Virus record (IMG/VR): IMGVR_UViG_3300017750_000143
Coordinates: 1 to 21,506 of that record
Length of the DNA: 21,506 nt
From: a virus
Strand: one strand, 5' to 3'
In this document: positions 2,597 to 18,903 of the stretch, one piece after another
How the letters are laid out: every line of letters begins with the position of its first letter
Position numbering within the stretch: the stretch's first letter is position 1
Program-made: the position numbers and the translations under genes
The notes under the pieces: generated by a model
The model's database searches: none
What the model saw: only the letters and a program-made list of their open reading frames with translations
What the model was told of the DNA's origin: nothing

Positions 2597-3347
2597 AACA
2601 TTTACTTATGACAACTCACCGGATACAGAGGTACTTACTGATGAAGAACAAGATTCTCTAGCAGTAGGTGAAGAACTTATGGATCAGCAGGAGAACCTCC
2701 TGGCTGGTAAATATAAGAATGCTGAGGAACTTGAGTCTGCATATATCGAGCTGCAACGAAAGCTTGGTGGTGACTCTGAGGATGGTGATGAAGGTATGGC
2801 AGAAGAAGATAGTGAAGAGTCTGATGAAGAAAGTAGCTTTGCGGCTGAGATGCTTACATCAGCATCACAAGAGTTCTATGAAAATGGTGAGCTATCTCAG
2901 GAAACCTTTGATGTACTGTCAGAACTAAGTAGTGGTGAACTACTTGAGACGTACATGTCTATGCAACCTGAACCTGCTGCAGACCTTACAGGTGATGATA
3001 TCAATGAACTAAAGGCAGCAGTCGGTGGGGAAGAAGCTTATAACCAGATTACTAATTGGGCTGCTTCAAGTCTTGCAGATGCAGAACTAGATGCATTTAA
3101 TGCGACTATTGACAACGGTACACCAGCACAAATTAAAATGATTATGGCTGGCTTGCAAGCTCGCTACCAACAAGAAAATGGCTACGAAGGTACTCAACTA
3201 CAAGGTAAACCTCCGTCCAGTTCCAGTGATGTATTCCGTAGTCAGGCTGAGGTTGTTGATGCAATCTCTGATCCTCGTTACGACCGTGATCCTGCATATC
3301 GTAATGATATCTTGATTAAACTAGAACGTTCTGATGTTACATTTTAA
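2589..3347 (+). CDS. gp9: Capsid assembly scaffolding protein (T7 gp9-like)
   Basis: The product is 252 aa, against 307 in T7 gp9. Scaffolding proteins line the inside of the procapsid, guide capsid protein polymerisation and leave before or during packaging. The ATG at 2589 (MAETFTYD) is chosen over an in-frame TTG at 2538 because only the former gives the expected MAE N-terminus. Features: the family motif GKYKNAEELESAYIELQRKLG near residues 39-59, a strongly acidic stretch (EDGDEGMAEEDSEESDEE) near 63-83, then helical sequence and a C-terminal segment rich in Asp, Tyr and Arg (SDPRYDRDPAYRNDI) that fits the capsid-binding end. It directly follows portal, and its TAA overlaps the hli start by one base. 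Confidence 0.92.
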   Translation: MAETFTYDNSPDTEVLTDEEQDSLAVGEELMDQQENLLAGKYKNAEELESAYIELQRKLGGDSEDGDEGMAEEDSEESDEESSFAAEMLTSASQEFYENGELSQETFDVLSELSSGELLETYMSMQPEPAADLTGDDINELKAAVGGEEAYNQITNWAASSLADAELDAFNATIDNGTPAQIKMIMAGLQARYQQENGYEGTQLQGKPPSSSSDVFRSQAEVVDAISDPRYDRDPAYRNDILIKLERSDVTF

Positions 3348-3538
3348 TGACAGTTATTAAAGAAGACGGCGGTCGTACAAACATTTACGCAATTGAACCT
3401 CCTATCTCATTTACACCAGTGTACGAAAATCACAGTCAAAAATCAGAGAAACTAAATGGACGCCTAGCAATGCTAGGTGTAATAGCTGCGCTAGGTGCGT
3501 ATGCCGTTACTGGTCAACTTATACCTGGAGTTTGGTAA
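3347..3538 (+). CDS. hli: High-light-inducible protein (Hli, small CAB-like)
   Basis: A 63-residue protein with the chlorophyll-binding signature E34-x-x-N37-G38-R39-x-A41-M42, followed by one membrane helix (about 40-55) and the GQLIPG ending typical of cyanobacterial and cyanophage Hli proteins. These thylakoid proteins bind chlorophyll and carotenoid and protect photosystem II from excess light. In an infected cell the phage copy is thought to help keep phage-made D1 working. The N-terminal 30 residues are soluble. The start is coupled to the scaffold stop (TAATG), and its own stop is coupled to the next small gene. hli between scaffold and psbA is the arrangement known in psbA-bearing T7-like cyanophages. 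Confidence 0.95.
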   Translation: MTVIKEDGGRTNIYAIEPPISFTPVYENHSQKSEKLNGRLAMLGVIAALGAYAVTGQLIPGVW

Positions 3539-3753: not shown

Positions 3754-4092
3754 ATGAAATCTATTATTATTGCTAGTCTTCTTGTCGCCGCTGGTGGCTC
3801 AGCTCATGCTGGTCCCTACGTCAATGTAGAAACCAATTCAGGCTTCGTCGGATCTGACTACACAGGATCAGCTACTGATGTACATATCGGTGTAGAAGGT
3901 AACGGCTGGTATCTTCAGGGAGGACCTGCTCTACTTGCACCGGACAATGCTGATGGTGAAGTAGAACTATCAGGTAAAGCTGGGGGTTCTTATGGAATCA
4001 ATGAAGCACTCTCTGTCTACGGAGAAGTGTCATTCTTGACTGGAGATACGAACAGCTACGGCACTAAGGCCGGACTTAAGTATAATTTTTAA
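3754..4092 (+). CDS. Secreted beta-barrel-like protein, 112 aa
   Basis: The N-terminus is a clear Sec signal peptide: MKS, a hydrophobic core IIIASLLVAAGG, and a probable cleavage after SAHA (residue 19). The mature 93 residues alternate polar and hydrophobic positions in strands separated by Gly, Asp and Asn turns (SGFVGSDYTGSATDVHIGV, YLQGGPALL, VELSGKAGGSYGI, LSVYGEVSFL), and end in GLKYNF with a terminal Phe, as in outer-membrane beta-barrels. It is too short for a normal porin, so it may be a small barrel, form oligomers or be a barrel-like surface protein. Similar small proteins occur in cyanophages. It follows a 23-base gap and has no Shine-Dalgarno site (AAAAA before ATG). Its role may be in the host envelope; this is inference. 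Confidence 0.7.
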   Translation: MKSIIIASLLVAAGGSAHAGPYVNVETNSGFVGSDYTGSATDVHIGVEGNGWYLQGGPALLAPDNADGEVELSGKAGGSYGINEALSVYGEVSFLTGDTNSYGTKAGLKYNF

Positions 4093-4200: not shown

Positions 4201-5280
4201 ATGACCTCTGTACTTACAAGACCACAACAACTAAATAACTGGGAAGCCTTTTGTAAATGGGTTACCTCTACTAACAACCGTCTGTATGTCGGTTGGTTTG
4301 GAATCCTGATGATTCCTACGCTCCTTGCAGCAACCATTTGTTTTGTTATCGCCTTCCTAGGCGCACCACCTGTAGACATTGATGGAATTCGTGAACCAAT
4401 TGCAGGATCGATCCTGTACGGAAATAACATTATATCGGGAGCAGTTGTCCCGTCTTCAAATGCTATCGGACTCCACTTCTATCCCATCTGGGAAGCAGCC
4501 AGTCTCGATGAATGGCTATACAACGGCGGACCATTCCAGCTTGTTGTCTTCCACTTCCTTATCGGTATCTACTCTTACATGGGACGCGAATGGGAACTTA
4601 GCTACAGGCTAGGTATGCGTCCTTGGATCTTCGTTGCTTACTCAGCACCTGTCGCTGCGGCCAGTGCTGTCTTCTTGGTATATCCCTTTGGACAAGGTTC
4701 TTTCTCAGATGCGATGCCTCTTGGCATTTCCGGCACCTTCAACTACATGCTTGTCTTCCAAGCTGAACACAATATTCTTATGCATCCTTTTCATATGCTT
4801 GGTGTTGCCGGCGTATTTGGTGGGTCTTTGTTTAGCGCTATGCACGGCAGTCTTGTCACGTCTTCGCTCATTCGTGAGACGACTGAGGATGTAAGTCAGA
4901 ACAACGGATATAAGTTCGGTCAGGAAGAAGAGACCTATAACATTGTTGCAGCTCATGGCTACTTCGGACGACTCATCTTCCAATACGCATCATTTAATAA
5001 CTCACGTTCGCTTCACTTTTTCCTGGCTGCTTGGCCTGTGGTTGGCATTTGGTTCACTAGCCTTGGTGTTAGCACTATGGCTTTCAATCTTAACGGATTC
5101 AACTTTAATCAATCCATTGTCGATAATGGGAATCATGTCATTCCTACTTGGGCCGATATTCTCAATAGAGCAGGACTTGGAATGGAAGTAATGCATGAAC
5201 GTAATGCTCACAATTTCCCACTTGATCTAGCAACAGCAACTACCACTGAGGTAGCACTGGCTGCACCATCTATCGGATAA
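4201..5280 (+). CDS. psbA: Photosystem II reaction centre protein D1
   Basis: A full-length 359-residue D1, intact and without an intron. D1 carries the primary photochemistry of photosystem II in the thylakoid membrane and turns over rapidly; phage copies keep photosynthesis running as host D1 is lost. All key residues are at canonical numbers: Tyr161 (Tyr-Z), Asp170, Glu189, His190, His332, Glu333, His337, Asp342 and Ala344 for the Mn cluster, His198 (P680), His215 and His272 (non-haem iron), Ser264 (QB). Residue 130 is Glu, the high-light form. The C-terminal extension after Ala344 ([15 protein letters not shown]) is the normal processed tail. The stromal loop reads [14 protein letters not shown] rather than the common host TTEVESQNYGYKFG, a phage-like variant. 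The ATG lacks a Shine-Dalgarno site. Confidence 0.99.
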
Positions 5281-5303: not shown

Positions 5304-5507
5304 ATGTCACAACTTGTTCGAGATACTTCGGGTCTTTCAATTCCGACACATGACTACCTTTCTTTTACCTATGTTTCCTCAGGAAACGGTGCTGGAGAAG
5401 TCAGTACAATTACATATAAAACTGGTGGATCTAGTGGTACTACTGTTGCTGTAGTCACTATGGCTTACAACAGTGATAACAAACTAACCTCTTTGACTTT
5501 GGTATAA
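5304..5507 (+). CDS. Small conserved phage protein, 67 aa, unknown
   Basis: The product begins MSQLVRDTSGLSIPTHDYLSF and continues as alternating strand-like segments: TYVSSGNGAGEVSTITYKTGG, then TTVAVVTMAYNSDNKLTSLTLV. It has no Cys, no signal peptide and no membrane segment. The layout looks like a small all-beta domain of the kind found beside tail-fibre and virion decoration genes in marine phages; similar short proteins starting with this motif are familiar, but I know no function. Its TAA shares a base with the ATG of the repeat protein that follows, so the two are probably translated together and may act together. No Shine-Dalgarno site precedes the ATG. Confidence 0.65.
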   Translation: MSQLVRDTSGLSIPTHDYLSFTYVSSGNGAGEVSTITYKTGGSSGTTVAVVTMAYNSDNKLTSLTLV

Positions 5508-6499
5508 TGTCTGTTCACTTTGATTTTGCTAACGGAAAATTTGTTTATACTTGGCAAGTCATAAGTGATGACGGCATAAAGTATTTCACAAGTGACGGCC
5601 AGTTAGTAACTAAAAACAATCTTATTCCTTCAGTGGGTACTCTTGCATTCCTTGAGTACACCACCGCTTCCGTATCTTCATTCCAAGTAAAGTCATATGG
5701 TGGTGTCAATTTTGACGTTGATTGGGGTGATTGTTCTACAGAAACAGGTATCACATCAAACGCTAAAGATCACACCTATTCTACTTCAGGTGTTTACAAG
5801 ATAAAAATTACACCAGCACCAGGTTCTACTTTTCGACCCAGACAATTTGGTGCGACTAACTACGAAACTAATTTAACTAAAGTCGAAGGTACTGGTGGCA
5901 GTAATCTTGGGACTAGTATAGTAGACGCTTTTAGAGGCTCAACTACGTTAACTTCTTTTGGCCGCATTGATACGTCTAGTGTTACACTTATGCAAAACGC
6001 TTGGAACTCGTGTACTGGACTTACATCTTTTCCTTTAATCGATACTTCAAATGTAACTTCTTGCGGTGGTGCGTGGGGTGCGTGTAGTGGATTAACATCG
6101 TTTCCTGCTTTGGATTTCTCAAGTGCAACCAATGTAGGTCAAGCATGGAACGGCTGCTCTAATCTTGTAAGTTTTCCTTCAGTAGATTTCTCAAATGTAA
6201 CCTCTACTTTTCGTAGAACATGGCGTTCTAATACATCCTTAACTACATATCCTGCAAATCAATTCGATAACATTCAGGTTACAGCGTCTAATGCATTTGA
6301 AGACGCATTTAGAAGTTGTGCTCTGACTGCTCAATCTATCGAAAATATTCTAACTTCACTAGATACTTTTGGTGGTATTAATATGTCTTTAGGTATTGGT
6401 TTTGGTACAAACGCTGGCAAGTCAACTTGGAGCACTGCAGCAAACACTGCATACGATAACCTAGTCACTAAAGGCTGGACTATTACTAATAACTCATGA
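5507..6499 (+). CDS. PKD-like plus BspA/DUF285-type repeat protein, putative virion adhesin
   Basis: A 330-residue protein in three parts. Residues 1-50 are a short beta-rich lead. Residues 55-105 resemble a PKD/Ig-like domain: VDWGDCSTE (D72-W73-G74-D75) and HTYSTSGVYKIKI (89-101), the classic WGD...HTY pattern. Residues 141-236 hold four 24-residue repeats with the pattern A-W/F-x-x-C-x-x-L-x-S-F-x-x-I/L/V-D-x-S, as in BspA-type leucine-rich (DUF285) surface proteins; a fifth, weaker unit follows (RTWRSNTSLTTYP). The C-terminus (260-330) has the HEAT-free ending typical of these proteins, LTAQSIENIL and YDNLVTKGWTITNNS. There is no signal peptide, so a virion or intracellular protein is more likely than a secreted one. 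It is coupled to both neighbours. Receptor or surface binding is inferred from the fold class. Confidence 0.75.
   Translation: MSVHFDFANGKFVYTWQVISDDGIKYFTSDGQLVTKNNLIPSVGTLAFLEYTTASVSSFQVKSYGGVNFDVDWGDCSTETGITSNAKDHTYSTSGVYKIKITPAPGSTFRPRQFGATNYETNLTKVEGTGGSNLGTSIVDAFRGSTTLTSFGRIDTSSVTLMQNAWNSCTGLTSFPLIDTSNVTSCGGAWGACSGLTSFPALDFSSATNVGQAWNGCSNLVSFPSVDFSNVTSTFRRTWRSNTSLTTYPANQFDNIQVTASNAFEDAFRSCALTAQSIENILTSLDTFGGINMSLGIGFGTNAGKSTWSTAANTAYDNLVTKGWTITNNS
5927..6214 (+). repeat. Four tandem 72-base (24-residue) BspA-type repeat units
   Basis: Units begin AFRGSTTL, AWNSCTGL, AWGACSGL and AWNGCSNL at residues 141, 165, 189 and 213 of the repeat protein. The DNA is diverged between units, but the protein pattern is regular. 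Units 2-4 have Cys at position 5. Confidence 0.7.
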
Positions 6500-11628: not shown

Positions 11629-12061
11629 GTACATTTATCCACTAACTAAAGAGGTCGCTGTTCATGTGGCCTCTAATTTGCGCCCTGAGGACCGTAGAGA
11701 ATGCACAGAGGGTCATGGTCATAATCCTCTGCTTGCTCTCCTTGGAGGCGCTTCTAGTGGTTACTCAGCAGCCTTCATGATGCCTAACGGTAAATGGGGT
11801 GCTGCTGGAGGAGTTGGTCCCGAGAACGGGATCTGGATGCTATGCACTCCTGAAATACACAACTATCCAAAGACCTTTGCACGTGAATGTAAACGTCTTA
11901 TTGAAAGTAGACCAGAGAAGATGCTGTGGAATATTTGCGATAAACGCAATGTAGTCCATCTAAAGCTTCTTCGATTTCTAGGATTTAAGTTTCTACGTGA
12001 AGTTACTTATGGTCCTAACAATTTAACCTTTATAGAATTTTGCCGTGTGCGAACCAGTTAG
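11621..12061 (+). CDS. gp13: gp13-like protein, GNAT-like
   Basis: A 146-residue protein, against 138 in T7 gp13. The ATG at 11621 (MSKYIYPLTKEVAVHVASNLRPEDRREC) overlaps the gp12 end by 8 bases; an upstream TTG at 11594 is less likely. The N-terminal pattern LTxEVAxxVAxxLRPEDRxE, and the C-terminal NVVHLKLLRFLGFKFLREVTYGPN, look like a GNAT acetyltransferase fold, as in the gp13 family, which is needed for virion assembly but has no proven transferase activity. A flexible GGASSGYSAAFMMPNGKWGAAGG segment sits mid-chain. The order between gp12 and gp14 is that of T7. Confidence 0.8.
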   Translation: MSKYIYPLTKEVAVHVASNLRPEDRRECTEGHGHNPLLALLGGASSGYSAAFMMPNGKWGAAGGVGPENGIWMLCTPEIHNYPKTFARECKRLIESRPEKMLWNICDKRNVVHLKLLRFLGFKFLREVTYGPNNLTFIEFCRVRTS

Positions 12062-12779
12062 CTTAGGTCTTATGGCCACCGGTCAAGCAGCTAGTGCCTT
12101 TGGTGGTCTTATGTCTGCAAGTGATCAGAAAAAGGCGCAAGTAAAAAAATACAAAAGAGACCTTGAAATTCAACGTGTAAAATGGGACGGAGAACGTGGT
12201 CTTTACAAAACCCGTGTAGCTGAATACAAAACCGAAATTCAAGAAAATGGTTTGAAGGCTAGCCGAGCTTATGCCGACGAACAAAGTAAACTTGACGATC
12301 TATTTAACGAAGCTGCGGTGAAGGCACAAGAATCCTTTGCTCAACTTTCTGCAAAACAAAAATACTTTGGATCTGGTAAAAATGCTAAGCGATTAGAGGC
12401 ACGTGACCTGAAAGATTTTGGTAGAAGGCAATCTTTAACAGTATCTAATCTGGTCCGTGCTCGCGAAAATTATCAAGGTAATGTAGAAAATATACGAGAA
12501 CGTTTGCGATCATCAAACCGTAATGCTTACTCTAAAGTTCAGTTTAAGCCTCAACCAGGTTTTGCACCTCTAAAACCAAATACTGATATGACTGCAGCTA
12601 CTTTGCAGTTTGTTGGTGGTATTGCATCTGCAGCATCTTCTGGGATTAGTTCATATAACAGTTTGAAAGCGCCTAATATTAAGACTGATTTTTTTAATCC
12701 AAATGTAGATTTTTCTTCCTTAATGGACTTTGACTTCTATGGAAAAGTTCCTAGTTCTTTTAGTTTTAATAAGCAATGA
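12045..12779 (+). CDS. gp14: Internal virion protein B (T7 gp14-like)
   Basis: A 244-residue protein, against 196 in T7. It starts at GTG 12045, read as MCEPVSLGLMATGQAASAFGGLMSA; MCEPV-type openings are common in podovirus gp14 proteins, and the hydrophobic N-terminal helix is followed by a long charged coiled coil (about 25-150: QKKAQVKKYKRDLEIQRVKWDGERG). In T7, gp14 is ejected first and forms a pore in the outer membrane. A second Gly/Ala/Ser-rich stretch (about 184-204, TAATLQFVGGIASAASSGISS) could insert in a membrane. It overlaps the gp13-like gene by 17 bases and gp15 by 4 (ATGA). Confidence 0.85.
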   Translation: MCEPVSLGLMATGQAASAFGGLMSASDQKKAQVKKYKRDLEIQRVKWDGERGLYKTRVAEYKTEIQENGLKASRAYADEQSKLDDLFNEAAVKAQESFAQLSAKQKYFGSGKNAKRLEARDLKDFGRRQSLTVSNLVRARENYQGNVENIRERLRSSNRNAYSKVQFKPQPGFAPLKPNTDMTAATLQFVGGIASAASSGISSYNSLKAPNIKTDFFNPNVDFSSLMDFDFYGKVPSSFSFNKQ

Positions 12780-15247
12780 CTTCATCTTTTCAATCATTTA
12801 GTCGAGGAGGTCAATTTCAACCATCGCAAGTTGATCTAGGTTCACAACAACAGGAACAAGTTAATCAACAAAACGTTCAAGGTTTAGAACGTAACTCTCA
12901 AGCTCAGTATGATCTCGATACTCAATCAGCTAGGGAAATTGAAAAGGCTGCACAAGGTCTCGCTGAGTTTTCTACTTCACTTTCAGACATTCTGATCGAT
13001 AGACAGAAGAAAGAAAACGAAAAGCTAATGCTGGAAGGTATGCGTGAGTACTGGTTAAATGGTGCTTCTGAAGAGGAACAAACTGCTTTCAAGGAAACAG
13101 AAGGTCAGCTCAATGAAGCACGTTCTGCTGCTGACCAAGCTGCAGGCGATTACGAAGCCGGTGGTGGTAGTGCCTTTGTAGCAGAAGGTCTTCGTAACCT
13201 TTCAGGGTGGAAGGCGTATGGCTTTGCTAAGGCAATGCTTCAACAAGCTGGAACCAATTACGGCACGTACCAAGTACAACGTGGTGACGAGCTTGGTATT
13301 AACGATATCTCAGACCCTAGAGAACGAGCTGCTATCCAACAACAAATTAGAGAAGAGTATCTGAAAACCTTCGCGGAAATGAATCCGTTGTTGTTAGATA
13401 ATTATTTGTTTCCTTCAATGCGTAAGTTTGAAGAAGCAGATTCCTTAGCTTTTGCTAATCGTCAAGCTAAACTATTTGCAGCAAACAGACAGTTAGAACG
13501 TACTCATTCTATGGTTACGCTTTTTCAATCTACTGATCCTGATGCTATTGCTAAAGGTATTTTAGAGTGGGAACAAACTTATCTTGGTCAGTATAATGGA
13601 AGCCGGAAGTTGGCACGAGCTGCGGCTTACCAAGAAATTTTAAAAGGCATTGATAATAAAACGATTTCTGGTATAGCTCTTTACAATGCATTGACTCAAT
13701 CTAACATCGAACAATTTGATGGTAGTGGGTTTAAATCCTTGGCAAAAATGCATCCAACTGAATATGGTTTTTTAATAGATATTGCTGAGTCAGCTTATTC
13801 TCAAGATGTAAGGCGTACAAGTGATTTTATACGTGCCCGTGAAACGGAACAAGTCAATACACTCATAGAGCAGTTTAACAATTCAGATGGAAGTGAAGCG
13901 ACAAAGCGTGAGCTCCTAAAAAATGCTCCACAGTTTACGTATCCTGAGTCTTACCAACAATTAAACAAGTTGGTTTCTAATGAAGATCACAAAGATACGC
14001 TTACAATTCAACAAATTCAGGAGCTCATGCAACGTGGGATTCATCCTCCTGATTCTTTAGTAAAGCAAATTAACGATAAGATCACACATGCACAGTTTAT
14101 TAAAGATATTGGCGAGAGTGAAGATGTACTTCCGCCTAAAGAAGTTCTCGCAAGCAACCTAGAAAAACTTGAGTCTCATATCAGAGGTATGGTCCGCAAA
14201 TCAGATTTTGACGGTCCACAAACTAAGTTTGGTTTCGACAACACCAAAGCATATTATTTAGATCAATATCGTCTTATTAAAGCCGAGAACCCCGGTATTG
14301 ACTCTAATGTTGCTGCTAATCAAGCAATGGTTTTAGCTATCGAAAAATCAGAAGAAAATAAAAGAGGTTCCGCTACATGGTTCAAACCTCCTTCTGGTTT
14401 TGAAAATAAAAATAAACCTGCTTTTAATCGAGTTAGTAAGGCGCTAGCCAATGGCACTGATGATTGGCGCGATGGTCTGGAAGGACTTGATAAACAAACA
14501 AAACAACTTAATGATTCACTTAAAGCTAGAACAGGTATTCCCACTTTTTGGAAAGACCTTGCTCGTTACCACGGTATTGACCGGTTTGAACTTATCAACG
14601 CCAACCTTAGGGCGTACGGATATGAGGAGTTCAAAGCACCCAAAGCATCTTTGATTGTTGCTGGGTTACCTCGTGATCAACAACATTTAATCAATTTCCA
14701 GAGTACTGGTTCTCGTGAAATGCGAGCTACGGTCAAAGAATCCAAATGGTTCTTAGATAAAGTCGCTCATGTTGAGTCCGAGGCTTATGGTGGCTACGAC
14801 GCTTTTAACCTAGGTGGTTATAATCGTGGTCGTACATCCATCGGTTCTGGTAACAGTCAAACAGACTTAGACAAACCAATCTCTACCATGACTGTTGGTG
14901 AGATTAAAGAACGACATGCGGCTGAAACTATCCACGCTGTTGGTCGTTATCAATTTACTAGACATGCATTTACTGATGTCATCAATAAACTTGGAATTAA
15001 AGATGACGTTGTGTTTGACGGACCTTTACAAGATCTCTTTGCACTGACTCGTGCAGTAATGAGAGTTCGTGAATGGAACCAAGGTACTGTTCTTGGTTTG
15101 TCAAATGAATGGGTTGGCCTTGAAAACTACGATGACGCTACTGTTCAACAAATGGTAGGCATTGCACAGAGGCTCCCGGTGTATATGCAGCTTCATACTC
15201 TTACTCCGGCTGCTGCTAAGGCACTGCCGCTAGTCAATAGAAACTAA
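12776..15247 (+). CDS. gp15: Internal virion protein C (T7 gp15-like) with C-terminal lysozyme-like domain
   Basis: The product is 823 aa, against 747 in T7 gp15. In T7, gp15 with gp16 forms the periplasmic DNA-ejection tube. Residues 1-60 are Gln-rich; the middle is long helical sequence with much Glu, Gln and Lys. Residues about 655-800 look like a phage lysozyme-like domain: VESEAYGGYDAFNLGGYNRG (666-685), TMTVGEIKERHA, then AVGRYQFTRHAF (721-732), the AxGRYQ signature of muramidase-like folds. The catalytic acid is probably E667 or E669. In T7 the murein-cutting domain is instead at the N-terminus of gp16. The N-terminal part fits gp15 by order and size; the enzyme activity is inferred from motifs. 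Confidence 0.85.
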   Translation: MTSSFQSFSRGGQFQPSQVDLGSQQQEQVNQQNVQGLERNSQAQYDLDTQSAREIEKAAQGLAEFSTSLSDILIDRQKKENEKLMLEGMREYWLNGASEEEQTAFKETEGQLNEARSAADQAAGDYEAGGGSAFVAEGLRNLSGWKAYGFAKAMLQQAGTNYGTYQVQRGDELGINDISDPRERAAIQQQIREEYLKTFAEMNPLLLDNYLFPSMRKFEEADSLAFANRQAKLFAANRQLERTHSMVTLFQSTDPDAIAKGILEWEQTYLGQYNGSRKLARAAAYQEILKGIDNKTISGIALYNALTQSNIEQFDGSGFKSLAKMHPTEYGFLIDIAESAYSQDVRRTSDFIRARETEQVNTLIEQFNNSDGSEATKRELLKNAPQFTYPESYQQLNKLVSNEDHKDTLTIQQIQELMQRGIHPPDSLVKQINDKITHAQFIKDIGESEDVLPPKEVLASNLEKLESHIRGMVRKSDFDGPQTKFGFDNTKAYYLDQYRLIKAENPGIDSNVAANQAMVLAIEKSEENKRGSATWFKPPSGFENKNKPAFNRVSKALANGTDDWRDGLEGLDKQTKQLNDSLKARTGIPTFWKDLARYHGIDRFELINANLRAYGYEEFKAPKASLIVAGLPRDQQHLINFQSTGSREMRATVKESKWFLDKVAHVESEAYGGYDAFNLGGYNRGRTSIGSGNSQTDLDKPISTMTVGEIKERHAAETIHAVGRYQFTRHAFTDVINKLGIKDDVVFDGPLQDLFALTRAVMRVREWNQGTVLGLSNEWVGLENYDDATVQQMVGIAQRLPVYMQLHTLTPAAAKALPLVNRN

Positions 15248-15249
15248 TT

Positions 15250-18200
15250 ATGCAAGATCAAGTGATGTACGATCCCCTAATTAGGGATCAAGTCGAAGCA
15301 GATGACTTTGCTGAAGATACGTCTATCCGATTAACTGATAAATACGAAGAACAACCTGAACAGCAACCTGAACAGCAAGCACGTAACGACGAAAACACAC
15401 TTGATGGTCAGCCGGATCAATTCAATGATTTTGGTGATGTTGTTCGTGAAATTGTTACTGCAGGAGCTGCTGGTTTACAACAGACAGCCTCTGATGTAAC
15501 CACTCTGCCTGAACGTGCCTTTGATATGGCTACAGGCGGTGATGTCGAAAACCCTGACTTTGATCCCTTTGGAGCTTTTACTAACCCCATTGAAACTCGT
15601 ACTTGGTGGGGAGGGGTTCTCAAGACTTTGGTGAACTATGGCACCTTGGCATTTGTTCCCGTTCCCGGTGCACGTATCGGTAAGGTGGCTGGTGCTACAA
15701 CTAAACTGGGATCACTCGGTCGAAGTGCACTCGTAGGTGCAAAGGTTGACCTAATTGCTTCAGGTTCACAGGAGGGAAATGCTCTCCAAATTATTGCTGA
15801 ACGTACTGGTATTGATATACCTCTAGCTACCAAAGATACTGATCACCCTGCATTGAAGACGCTTAAAAATGTCGTTGAAGGTATGGGTATTGGAGCCATT
15901 ATGGATGGTGTTTTTCTTGCCATTAAAGGTCCTGGCGGATCTGCTGATGTTGTTTCACGTCAAGAGTCATCAAAAGCAAGGCATGACACCATGTCTGTTA
16001 AACAGGTTCAGGAAAACCCTGAAGCTTTTGGAGGCTACAAAAACAAACCTGTAGCTGATATTCATCAAGGTAACGTCCGTTCTGGTGGTACCGCCGATGG
16101 TGTTTATCGACAACAACAACGTATTCGTCACGAGAAGAGCGCTGAGCGTGGGTCTACTGACTCTCTTGTGACTGAGATTGAAGCCGAACGTATTGCTCGT
16201 GGTAATCCTGATGTAAGTGATGAAGTCACCACACGGCTAATGAAAGAATTTGCTTCTTCTAGCTATGTAACTAGAGAGGTAGCAGCAGCTCGTAAAGCTG
16301 GTGTTCCTTTACATGAGGTTTGGCAAGACTCTATGAAGAGTATGCAAGAAATGTTAGACGGTAGAAATGCAACTGACATTACTCCGCGTGAATGGGCTGA
16401 TGATTTTTATAGCCAGGGTATTAAAAGAAAAATCAAACTTGAGGACGGTAGCTTTGAAGAAATTGAGGTGATGAACCCTAATGCTATTGCTGCTGCTGAT
16501 CTCATTAAAGGATCCTTGCTTAAAGAGATTCGTGACCTTGGTATTTCCGGTCGTGAACTTCAAGATTTTTATGACCTTGGTGATGTAGATGGTCCTGGGC
16601 AAGCTTTGTTTGACAAGTTTGCTGCCTTGACTGTTATGACTAAAAAGTCACGAAGATTTGCCGGTTATGACCTGCGTTCTGTCGGAGGTTTGGACGTACC
16701 TAAGAAGGTTGATTTCGAAAAGGAAGTCTCTAAAGAAGTTCAGGAATCAATTGATGCTTTCCGTACTGCCTATGACATGGCTGGTGAAAGTGGTGACAAT
16801 GAGCTTTTTAAAACCTATATGGAAACGGCTTCCATGATGGAAGATGCACGTAATTTAGATGATTTAGATTCCTTCTTACGTAAAAAAATGCGTGGCGGTG
16901 AGTTCAACGGTCGCAAACAAACCGGTGAACTTGTTAAGGAACTTGAAGGTGTAATGATTCACAGCGTTCTTAGCGGTCCTAAAACCCCAGTAAGAGCCAT
17001 TATGGGAACTGCTTCTGCGGCTTATCTGAGGCCATTTGCCACAGCTTTAGGTGCCACTTTAACTGGTGATGTAGTTACTCGTAAGGCATCTTTGGCAGCT
17101 TTAAACGGCATGGTCGAGATGATACCTGAGGCTTTTACTCTTTTCCGTAAACGTCTCAATGGATATTTCTCTGGTGATATGGCTACTGTTCAATCTCGGT
17201 ATGCCGAGGTTACTAGGCAAGACTCACAGTGGCAGATGTACGGCGATTGGGCTGAGAAACGTGGCACCGATGCTGATAAAGCAGTTTTCCGTTTTGCAAA
17301 TATGGCTCGCGGCATAAACGACAGCAACCTGTTCACGTTTTCCACCAAGATCATGGCTGCAACTGATGACACCTTTGGTCATATCCTTGCTCGTGGAAAG
17401 ATGCGTGAACGTGCTATGCGTGAATCTCTTGATATGGCAAGTAAAGGTGACATTACTGAAATTACTCCTGCTATTTTAAAAAGAGCAGAAGATAAATTCT
17501 ACTCACAGATATTAGATGCTGACGGTAATATCGTTGACGATGCCGTGAAGTTTGCTAAGCGTGAAGCTACTTTGACTCAAGATCTTGAAGGTTTTTCTAA
17601 GGGACTAGAGAACTTGTTTAACCAGAACCCTTGGGCCAAACCGTTTTTCCTGTTTGCACGTACTGGTGTTAACGGTCTACAACTGACTGCCAAATACACA
17701 CCTGGATTTAATCGTTTGGTTAAAGAGCACAATGTTATTGCACGTGCTACTGCAGATGATGTTACTTCTGGAAATCTAACTAAGTATGGCATAAATACCT
17801 TTGAAGAGTTGCAGAACGCTAAGGCACTTCAGAAAGGTCGGATGGCAATCGGTTCTTCAGTAATCACCCTAGCCTCCATGATGTGGATGTCTGGCAACAT
17901 GTCTGGTGATGGTCCTACTGATCGTCAGATGCGTCAGTCCTGGGTTGATGCTGGATGGCGTCCACGTACTTTTACTGTTGGTGGCGTTGAACTTGGTTAT
18001 GAAAGTTTTGAACCATTCAACCAAATTATGGCAACAGTTTCCAATATTGGAGACCATAGCTTACTTATGGGAGAGGAGTGGACTGAAGATCAATTACTAA
18101 AGGTGGCTATGGTTGTAGCTCAAAGTGCTGCAAGTAAAAGCTACTTAACTGGCCTTCAACAGTTCGTAGACCTGTTTTCACCTGGTCAACAAGGTGGTCA

Positions 18201-18903
18201 TAACAGGATCATTGCAAGCTTGATGAACAACACTGTTCCCTTATCTTCAATGAGAAATGAATTGGGTAAATTGTTTAATCCATATATGAAAGAATTGAAT
18301 TCTGGTATTACAGATTCTATTCGTAACCGAAACCAAATTAGTGAAGGGTTGAGCGGTCAACCGTTACCTGTCAAGTATGACATGCTCAACGGCAAGCCAA
18401 TTAATGATTTTAACTTTATTAATCGTGCTTGGAATATGTTTTCGCCTATCCAATTTAATTTAGACCAGGGTCCTGGTCGTAAGCTGCTTTTCCGCAGTGG
18501 TTATGACGCACGGCTTTCTGTTTACTACGCACCTGATAACACTGATCTTTCTGAACTGCCTGGAGTCCGATCTAAATTCATGAAAGCTATTGGTGATCAA
18601 AATCTAGAGGCTGAACTTAACCGTCTTTCGACTGAACCGCGTATTCAGGCAAGTATTCGAAAAATGGAACGTGATCGTAATAATGGTGCACGTGATAATG
18701 ATCCTATGAAGTCTTACTATCACACACAGGAAATTCGTAATTTATTTAATGCAGCTAGAAAACGAGCTTGGTTTTTAATTATGAATGAACCTGATGTTCG
18801 GGCTGCTATTAATGAATCTCAAACTAAGCGTCAGTCTGCTTTTGATTCAAAGATGGAATCTACCTACGGACAAATTGATTCAGTCCTTAACATACCTAAG
18901 TAA
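15250..18903 (+). CDS. gp16: Internal virion protein D (T7 gp16-like)
   Basis: A 1217-residue protein, against 1318 in T7. It is the largest ejected protein and, in T7, spans periplasm and inner membrane. Here residues 30-50 are a Gln/Glu repeat (EQQPEQQ), followed by helical segments with hydrophobic patches (about 120-155 and 862-882). The segment DAGWRPRTFTVGGVELGYESFEPFNQIM near 900-927 is of a type well conserved in podovirus gp16 proteins. No SLT or lysozyme motif is visible in the first 200 residues, unlike T7. The ATG lies two bases after the gp15 stop, and the stop shares a base with the tail-fibre start. Identification rests on size, order and that segment. Confidence 0.88.
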   Translation: MQDQVMYDPLIRDQVEADDFAEDTSIRLTDKYEEQPEQQPEQQARNDENTLDGQPDQFNDFGDVVREIVTAGAAGLQQTASDVTTLPERAFDMATGGDVENPDFDPFGAFTNPIETRTWWGGVLKTLVNYGTLAFVPVPGARIGKVAGATTKLGSLGRSALVGAKVDLIASGSQEGNALQIIAERTGIDIPLATKDTDHPALKTLKNVVEGMGIGAIMDGVFLAIKGPGGSADVVSRQESSKARHDTMSVKQVQENPEAFGGYKNKPVADIHQGNVRSGGTADGVYRQQQRIRHEKSAERGSTDSLVTEIEAERIARGNPDVSDEVTTRLMKEFASSSYVTREVAAARKAGVPLHEVWQDSMKSMQEMLDGRNATDITPREWADDFYSQGIKRKIKLEDGSFEEIEVMNPNAIAAADLIKGSLLKEIRDLGISGRELQDFYDLGDVDGPGQALFDKFAALTVMTKKSRRFAGYDLRSVGGLDVPKKVDFEKEVSKEVQESIDAFRTAYDMAGESGDNELFKTYMETASMMEDARNLDDLDSFLRKKMRGGEFNGRKQTGELVKELEGVMIHSVLSGPKTPVRAIMGTASAAYLRPFATALGATLTGDVVTRKASLAALNGMVEMIPEAFTLFRKRLNGYFSGDMATVQSRYAEVTRQDSQWQMYGDWAEKRGTDADKAVFRFANMARGINDSNLFTFSTKIMAATDDTFGHILARGKMRERAMRESLDMASKGDITEITPAILKRAEDKFYSQILDADGNIVDDAVKFAKREATLTQDLEGFSKGLENLFNQNPWAKPFFLFARTGVNGLQLTAKYTPGFNRLVKEHNVIARATADDVTSGNLTKYGINTFEELQNAKALQKGRMAIGSSVITLASMMWMSGNMSGDGPTDRQMRQSWVDAGWRPRTFTVGGVELGYESFEPFNQIMATVSNIGDHSLLMGEEWTEDQLLKVAMVVAQSAASKSYLTGLQQFVDLFSPGQQGGHNRIIASLMNNTVPLSSMRNELGKLFNPYMKELNSGITDSIRNRNQISEGLSGQPLPVKYDMLNGKPINDFNFINRAWNMFSPIQFNLDQGPGRKLLFRSGYDARLSVYYAPDNTDLSELPGVRSKFMKAIGDQNLEAELNRLSTEPRIQASIRKMERDRNNGARDNDPMKSYYHTQEIRNLFNAARKRAWFLIMNEPDVRAAINESQTKRQSAFDSKMESTYGQIDSVLNIPK

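Follow-up and report, generated by a model that had tools for sequence, protein, structure and literature searches.

Among the factors that shape the mortality of the ocean's dominant picocyanobacteria are the cyanopodoviruses (PMC9860041). What is known about the passage of their short tails through the cyanobacterial envelope comes mostly from analogy with T7, as in the reasoning on P-SSP7 (PMC5345008). The T7 virion holds eight copies of gp15 and four of gp16 (PMC11784390). In T7, the transglycosylase is at the N-terminus of gp16. The placement of a murein-cutting enzyme on a gp15-type protein is also already known. The gp15-type protein gp36 of phiKMV features a C-terminal lysozyme whose activity was shown (Lavigne 2004, Briers 2006, cited in PMC5380687), and SP6 gp36 and a K1-5 protein are listed as lysozyme-bearing gp15-type proteins (PMC5380687). 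Likewise, the gp15-like proteins of K1E and K1-5 contain lysozyme activity, such swapping being called thematic (PMC8954989). In Pectobacterium phage PhiM1, cryo-EM resolved a lysozyme-like domain (Gly718-Ser903) in the C-terminal part of the ejection protein of the gp15 type, which forms an octamer; the gp16-type protein of this phage has an endolysin-like insert at residues 268-528 (PMC11440229).

The stretch of viral DNA analyzed here, called the window, comprises 21,506 bases, and its nearest named phage is the T7-like Synechococcus phage S-TIP37. Its gp15-like gene sits between gp14-like and gp16-like genes, in the order gp14-gp15-gp16:

12045..12779, + strand, gp14-like internal virion protein (Pfam T7_gp14, E 3.3e-7)
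12776..15247, + strand, gp15-like internal virion protein, the putative tunnel protein, 823 aa (ORF, S-TIP37 identity, fold, gene order)
15250..18903, + strand, gp16-like internal virion protein, 1217 aa (PHROG internal virion protein phrog_6651, 1.9e-272)

In front of its capsid gene, the window carries a gene resembling psbA (photosystem II D1) at 4201-5280, and the S-TIP37 record annotates psbA at the equivalent place. Further ORFs were assigned by eye: a 63-aa ORF at 3347-3538 resembles a high-light-inducible protein, and a 330-aa ORF at 5507-6499, in the interval from psbA to the capsid gene, seems to contain BspA-like leucine-rich repeats. A 112-aa ORF at 3754-4092, which starts like a signal peptide and ends in Phe, resembles a small outer-membrane beta-barrel protein, which would be unusual for a phage.

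The gp15-like protein is 44-45% identical to the S-TIP37 protein at the equivalent position over nearly the whole length. By phmmer, gp15 found no match in the PDB, and its residues 1-639 found no chain, T7 gp15 included; the Pfam matches to A2M_bMG2 (E 0.071) and DUF6161 (E 9.1) were taken as chance. The AlphaFold model (46-row alignment, mean pLDDT 72.3) led to T7 by structure, with the following part of gp15 as the region of likeness:

13097..14362, + strand, helical tunnel/scaffold part of gp15, residues 108-529 (VIA-align, Foldseek to T7)

The top three VIA-align rows are T7 gp15/core chains, namely 9jyy_G (Z 7.7, model residues 110-406), 7eyb_A (Z 7.4, residues 108-525) and 6yt5_A (Z 7.2, residues 145-529), although Z scores of 7.0-7.7 lie in the middling, common range of the tool's own scale and the rmsd of these matches is high, e.g., 7.1 over 256 residues. 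Foldseek ranked the T7 ejectosome tunnel 7k5c_A first, as a weak match (E 0.017, prob 0.97), and gave no PDB match at E <=0.001 for the whole model. At such middling scores, the modeled protein appears to have the helical fold of the T7 gp15 type. The assignment is persuasive because the two parts of gp15 match the two expected families, the second part being the following C-terminal domain:

14723..15199, + strand, lysozyme-fold (lambda-lysozyme-like) domain, gp15 residues 650-808 (pLDDT, 1am7_A, profile, phrog_90)
14774..14776, + strand, E667, the predicted catalytic acid (conserved Glu, lambda lysozyme alignment)
14936..14956, + strand, AVGRYQF motif, residues 721-727 (conservation, aligned with lambda lysozyme AGRYQL)

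The original prediction had seen a lysozyme-like pattern at about residues 655-800 of gp15, with VESEAYGGYDAFN at residues 666-678 and AVGRYQF at 721-727. Both motifs stand exactly as claimed, and the pattern was borne out by homology, profile, shuffles and model. The predicted interval of 14762-15175 corresponds to residues 663-800, and the folded domain is slightly larger (about 650-808). Searched by tblastn with the whole gp15, a set of 50,697 phage records gave matches in 25: two S-TIP37 records over nearly the whole protein (44%), two P-GSP1 records in the N-terminal part, and 21 cyanomyovirus records whose match is confined to residues 659-787 (29.5-30.1%, E 1e-6 to 3e-6; S-CAM22 with 29.5% and E 1e-6, S-RIM8 with 30.1% and E 2e-6 to 3e-6). 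These cyanomyovirus proteins are annotated as 'endolysin', 'lysozyme murein' or hypothetical. In viral contigs, 66 loci with the lysozyme domain were found from the domain alignment, and at 14 viral-contig loci besides the window (L024, L030, L032-L043) the domain forms the end of a gp15-like ORF. Across the aligned domains, E667, A721, G723 and Q726 are invariant (67/67, the window counted), the Glu column being ambiguous for the short-spacer 'GEGGYN' domains, in which it varies with where the gaps are set; F747 and Q752 are identical in 66/66. The peptide patterns of the scan included YGGYNAFN and MTVGEI, so that conservation at these two sites is partly by construction.

An HMM was built from the rows of 23 non-gp15 relatives, which contained no gp15 row and had themselves been picked because tblastn found them similar to the domain in the window; the cyanomyovirus matches of the whole gp15 do not depend on this choice. 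It finds window gp15 at residues ~655-805 with E 1.2e-25 and, among 778 ORFs, S-TIP37 (E 1.4e-31) and S-RIP1 (E 1.7e-9), with nothing beyond these three at E <=10 and no gp16. The real gp15 C-terminus scores 87.5 bits with this HMM, whereas 1000 shuffles reached 7.3 at most; the match is not due to chance. Pfam and NCBIfam contain no family that recognizes the domain in window gp15. The PHROG 'endolysin' families phrog_90 and phrog_1200 were matched by 29/29 (window E 5.7e-5) and 24/29 domain rows, respectively. Therefore, the label 'transcriptional regulator' of phrog_34632, the best PHROG for the gp15 C-terminal region, was taken as a mislabel.

Residues 651-810 are modeled with block-mean pLDDT values of 73-95. 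Lambda lysozyme (1am7_A) is the fourth VIA match, covering model residues 651-796 (Z 7.0, rmsd 4.8, 121 residues, 20% identity), and the only murein enzyme among the best 50 matches listed. In the alignment to lambda lysozyme, E667 falls on the Glu of 'AWSEG', which we take to be Glu19, the catalytic acid of lambda, and AVGRYQF on AGRYQL. A search with the domain profile gave lambda lysozyme as a weak match (E 0.42-0.44) in which the Glu and GRYQ line up, and the domain is therefore named lambda-lysozyme-like, not a proven member of the family, which presumably corresponds to CAZy GH104 (lambda R) and is marked by a transglycosylase reaction with 1,6-anhydro products. A stronger profile match was obtained for 11mn_A, a '66 kDa protein' (E 7e-4). 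It is thus confirmed that gp15 residues ~650-808 constitute a domain of lysozyme fold in which a Glu is conserved. As the same domain occurs in large cyanomyovirus proteins, one might regard the protein at the gp15 position as a virion lysozyme outside the ejectosome, i.e., a separate tail or head protein. This is very improbable, as the gene order gp14-gp15-gp16 argues against it, as do the top-ranking structural match to T7 gp15 across ~420 residues and a scaffold common to the gp15-like proteins of many cyanopodoviruses. Very probably, the gp15-like protein forms the ejection tunnel of a T7-like cyanophage and bears, fused to its C-terminus, a murein-cutting lysozyme/transglycosylase domain of the lambda type.

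The gp16-like protein begins, as predicted, with a Gln/Glu-rich stretch (28% Gln+Glu in residues 1-60). It matched neither Pfam nor NCBIfam, nor the lysozyme-domain profile, nor any of six local enzyme profiles. By hhalign, its N-terminal profile reached a probability of 0.1% against T7 gp16 1-158 (SLT), and the protein gave no match to the lysozyme profile. The T7 transglycosylase, correctly placed at the gp16 N-terminus by the original prediction, was picked up in a scan of this kind and served as positive control (Pfam SLT, residues 15-127, E 1.7e-31). Still, Pfam fails to recognize the enzyme domain of window gp15 as well. Since the AlphaFold model of gp16 residues 1-500 is unusable for fold comparison (mean pLDDT 30), the absence of an enzyme applies to the level of sequence. 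At this level, window gp16 appears to be free of a detectable wall-cutting domain, and the claimed lack of a lysozyme-like motif agrees with the profiles. Of the expectation that an enzyme with a conserved Glu occurs only in gp15, the gp15 part stands, and the part on a missing SLT domain in gp16 holds for the sequence comparison.

The survey covered the gp14-gp17 region of 25 named isolates, i.e., 23 cyanopodoviruses, one roseophage and one pelagiphage. Within the gp16-like proteins, a murein enzyme was found in 0/26 phages (window plus 25; Pfam, E <=0.1), the scan comprising 24 pieces from 22 phages, the S-RIP1 start piece and four more. The gp16 genes of S-CBP3 (L010:4379-8193) and S-RIP1 (L015:3980-7977) each appear split into two ORFs, L015:3980-4768 being probably the start of the latter. 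These data bear on the possibility that the gp15 domain is mainly murein-binding or structural and that the active enzyme resides in gp16, as an inserted domain like that of PhiM1, or elsewhere in the virion. PhiM1 indeed has both a gp15-type lysozyme-like domain and a gp16-type endolysin-like domain at 268-528 (PMC11440229), and a diverged enzyme insert in window gp16 remains conceivable given this insert, the blindness of Pfam to the gp15 domain and the unusable gp16 model. However, a binding-only role would not require the observed conservation of E667 and the motif, and no enzyme profile matches any gp16 surveyed, which makes a mainly structural gp15 domain improbable.

In 15 of the 23 cyanopodovirus isolates, the gp15 C-terminus bears one of five enzyme families. 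The lambda type occurs in S-TIP37 and S-RIP1 (gp15 at L015:1608-3971). Phage_lysozyme2-like enzymes are assigned to P60 (above the cut-off in one scan and below it in another), Syn5 and S-TIP28 (both below the cut-off) as well as SS120-1 and S-CBP42 (both by homology to the former three, SS120-1 being in the seed of that profile). SLT domains reside on gp15 of S-CBP3 and S-CBP4 only, glucosaminidases on that of S-SRP01, DSL-LC07 and S-CBP1, and SleB-type Hydrolase_2 domains on that of S-RIP2 and S-SBP1 (above the cut-off) and S-B28 (below). In S-SRP01 and S-CBP4, the first enzyme is followed by an M23 peptidase as second domain, and weaker M23-like second domains occur in P60, DSL-LC07 and S-CBP1. 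According to a 2017 review (PMC5380687), virion lysins that combine two lytic domains are found solely among phages infecting Gram-positive bacteria; the tandem of glycosidase and M23 peptidase in S-SRP01 (L011:1352-4510) and S-CBP4 (L020:886-3990) is predicted to be an exception. Whole-genome scans found SLT in 3/24 records (S-CBP3 gp15, S-CBP4 gp15 and T7 gp16) and Phage_lysozyme in 0/25, and located the matches to glucosaminidase, M23 and Hydrolase_2 in gp15 or in short separate genes. In P60, S-SRP01, DSL-LC07 and S-CBP1, one enzyme family is present both as gp15 module and as separate short gene, the latter being a possible source of the former.

The scans detected no gp15 enzyme in P-SSP7, P-GSP1, NATL1A-7, 9515-10a, P-SSP10, P-SSP2, P-SSP3 and NATL2A-133, nor in CRP-114 or HTVC011P. 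In the eight cyanopodoviruses among these, neither gp15 nor gp16 shows a murein enzyme, and seven of them are Prochlorococcus phages by record or name. The gp15 proteins of P-GSP1 (624 aa) and NATL2A-133 (620 aa) end before the enzyme slot, and this shortness supports a true absence of the enzyme. In P-SSP7, NATL1A-7 and 9515-10a, C-termini are present which match no enzyme profile. The Tangaroavirus C-termini of 9515-10a and P-SSP10 (L013:3230-3976, L098:3230-3976) show GRFQ/GKFQ in register with the lysozyme profile and no clear Glu (hhalign probability 5.6%), a hint that gp15 possibly ends in a degenerate, dead lambda-type lysozyme there.

Most enzyme families at the gp15 end probably share a lysozyme-like fold, whereas M23 has a different one. 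The scaffold in front of them is common to phages with different enzymes, as shown by the comparison of window gp15 with DSL-LC07 (E 6.5e-17) and S-SRP01 (E 3.2e-11), and also to the enzyme-less P-GSP1 (E 2.3e-18). The alignment stops before the enzyme in 25/30 cross-type gp15 pairs with a BLASTP match, given a tolerance of 30 residues and a manual placement of the enzyme starts according to the profile bounds. Two of the remaining five reflect an M23-like module common to P60 and S-CBP1/DSL-LC07 (38% identity), and three extend into lysozyme-like regions. The Hydrolase_2 modules of S-B28 and S-RIP2 are 46% identical, and no other BLASTP match was reported between these two. A detectable gp15 module is present in 14/15 Synechococcus phages vs 1/8 Prochlorococcus phages (host from the record, for P-SSP7 from the name), for which a Fisher p of 2.5e-4 overstates the evidence because relatedness is uncorrected, some gp15 proteins are identical (P-SSP2 and P-SSP3) or 78% identical (P-SSP10 and 9515-10a) and P-SSP2, the one Synechococcus exception, has this host only by its record. 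A thinner cell wall in Prochlorococcus might conceivably account for such a host split.

That the activity had moved from gp16 to gp15, as originally proposed, is not supported as stated: SP6, K1-5, phiKMV and PhiM1 already have the gp15-type placement on record, and the enzyme family at the gp15 C-terminus varies from one cyanophage to another. A single ancestral transfer would account for an enzyme on gp16 in T7 and on gp15 in the window, but five different families at the cyanopodovirus gp15 end and the restriction of SLT at this place to two phages (S-CBP3, S-CBP4) make it unlikely. The differing families rather suggest repeated acquisition or exchange. A swappable C-terminal slot fits better than a move from gp16. 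We tentatively propose that the cyanopodovirus gp15 C-terminus is such a slot on a conserved tunnel scaffold, holding interchangeable enzymes (lambda-lysozyme-like, Phage_lysozyme2-like, SLT, glucosaminidase or SleB-type Hydrolase_2, alone or with M23 peptidase) which may be chosen per host wall, with the slot vacant in the majority of Prochlorococcus phages. On this view, the wall cutter of the virion would evolve fast and be matched to the host, as a tail fibre is. An internal core protein gene was previously found to be phylogenetically incongruent, and genetic exchange was suggested (PMC4646655); the text of that study makes no mention of lysozyme, peptidoglycan or glucosaminidase.

After adsorption, gp15 of the window phage would be ejected into the periplasm together with gp14 and gp16 and assemble into a tunnel, its C-terminal domain opening the peptidoglycan locally with E667 as presumed acid. 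This domain would thereby take over the wall-opening job of the T7 gp16 N-terminus. Proteins of the T7 gp15 type form an octamer in the virion and a hexameric tunnel in the periplasm, and gp15 of the window phage may do likewise. With the wall cutter carried by the tunnel protein, its dose, its position and the time at which it acts might be unlike those in T7, and it would be present as the tunnel forms instead of arriving with gp16. As originally suggested, such a placement may also bear on how the ejectosome partners assemble and in which order they act. Moreover, an enzyme type exchanged on a constant scaffold would be a candidate host-range determinant, testable by swap or deletion of a single domain in a tractable cyanophage. 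Besides, several murein enzymes are hereby flagged among the hypothetical proteins of deposited genomes.

A lambda-type enzyme at the gp15 end and the cyanopodovirus-wide pattern were not found in print in the literature searched. T7 shares the gp15 fold and gene order with the window, whereas its enzyme is the SLT domain at gp16 residues 15-127 and its gp15 has no Pfam match. The lysozymes of SP6 gp36 and of the K1E/K1-5 gp15-like proteins sit on a gp15-type protein as in the window, but belong to the Phage_lysozyme family (SP6 gp36 residues 770-905, Pfam E 6.6e-10) and not to the lambda type. Likewise, phiKMV gp36 carries its lysozyme at the C-terminus of a gp15-type protein; judged by eye, we take this enzyme to be T4-lysozyme-like, and it could not be aligned meaningfully with the profile of the domain in the window. 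PhiM1 resembles the window in the lysozyme-like domain in the C-terminal part of its gp15-type protein and differs in the second, endolysin-like domain of the gp16-type protein, none being detected in window gp16. The endolysin-annotated proteins of the cyanomyoviruses S-RIM8 and S-CAM22 belong to the window's domain family (~30% identity), but on a different carrier protein and in a different virion type. In S-TIP37 (MH540083), gp15 features the same domain at the same place, with 45% whole-protein identity to the window, and is annotated as 'hypothetical protein', not as an enzyme.
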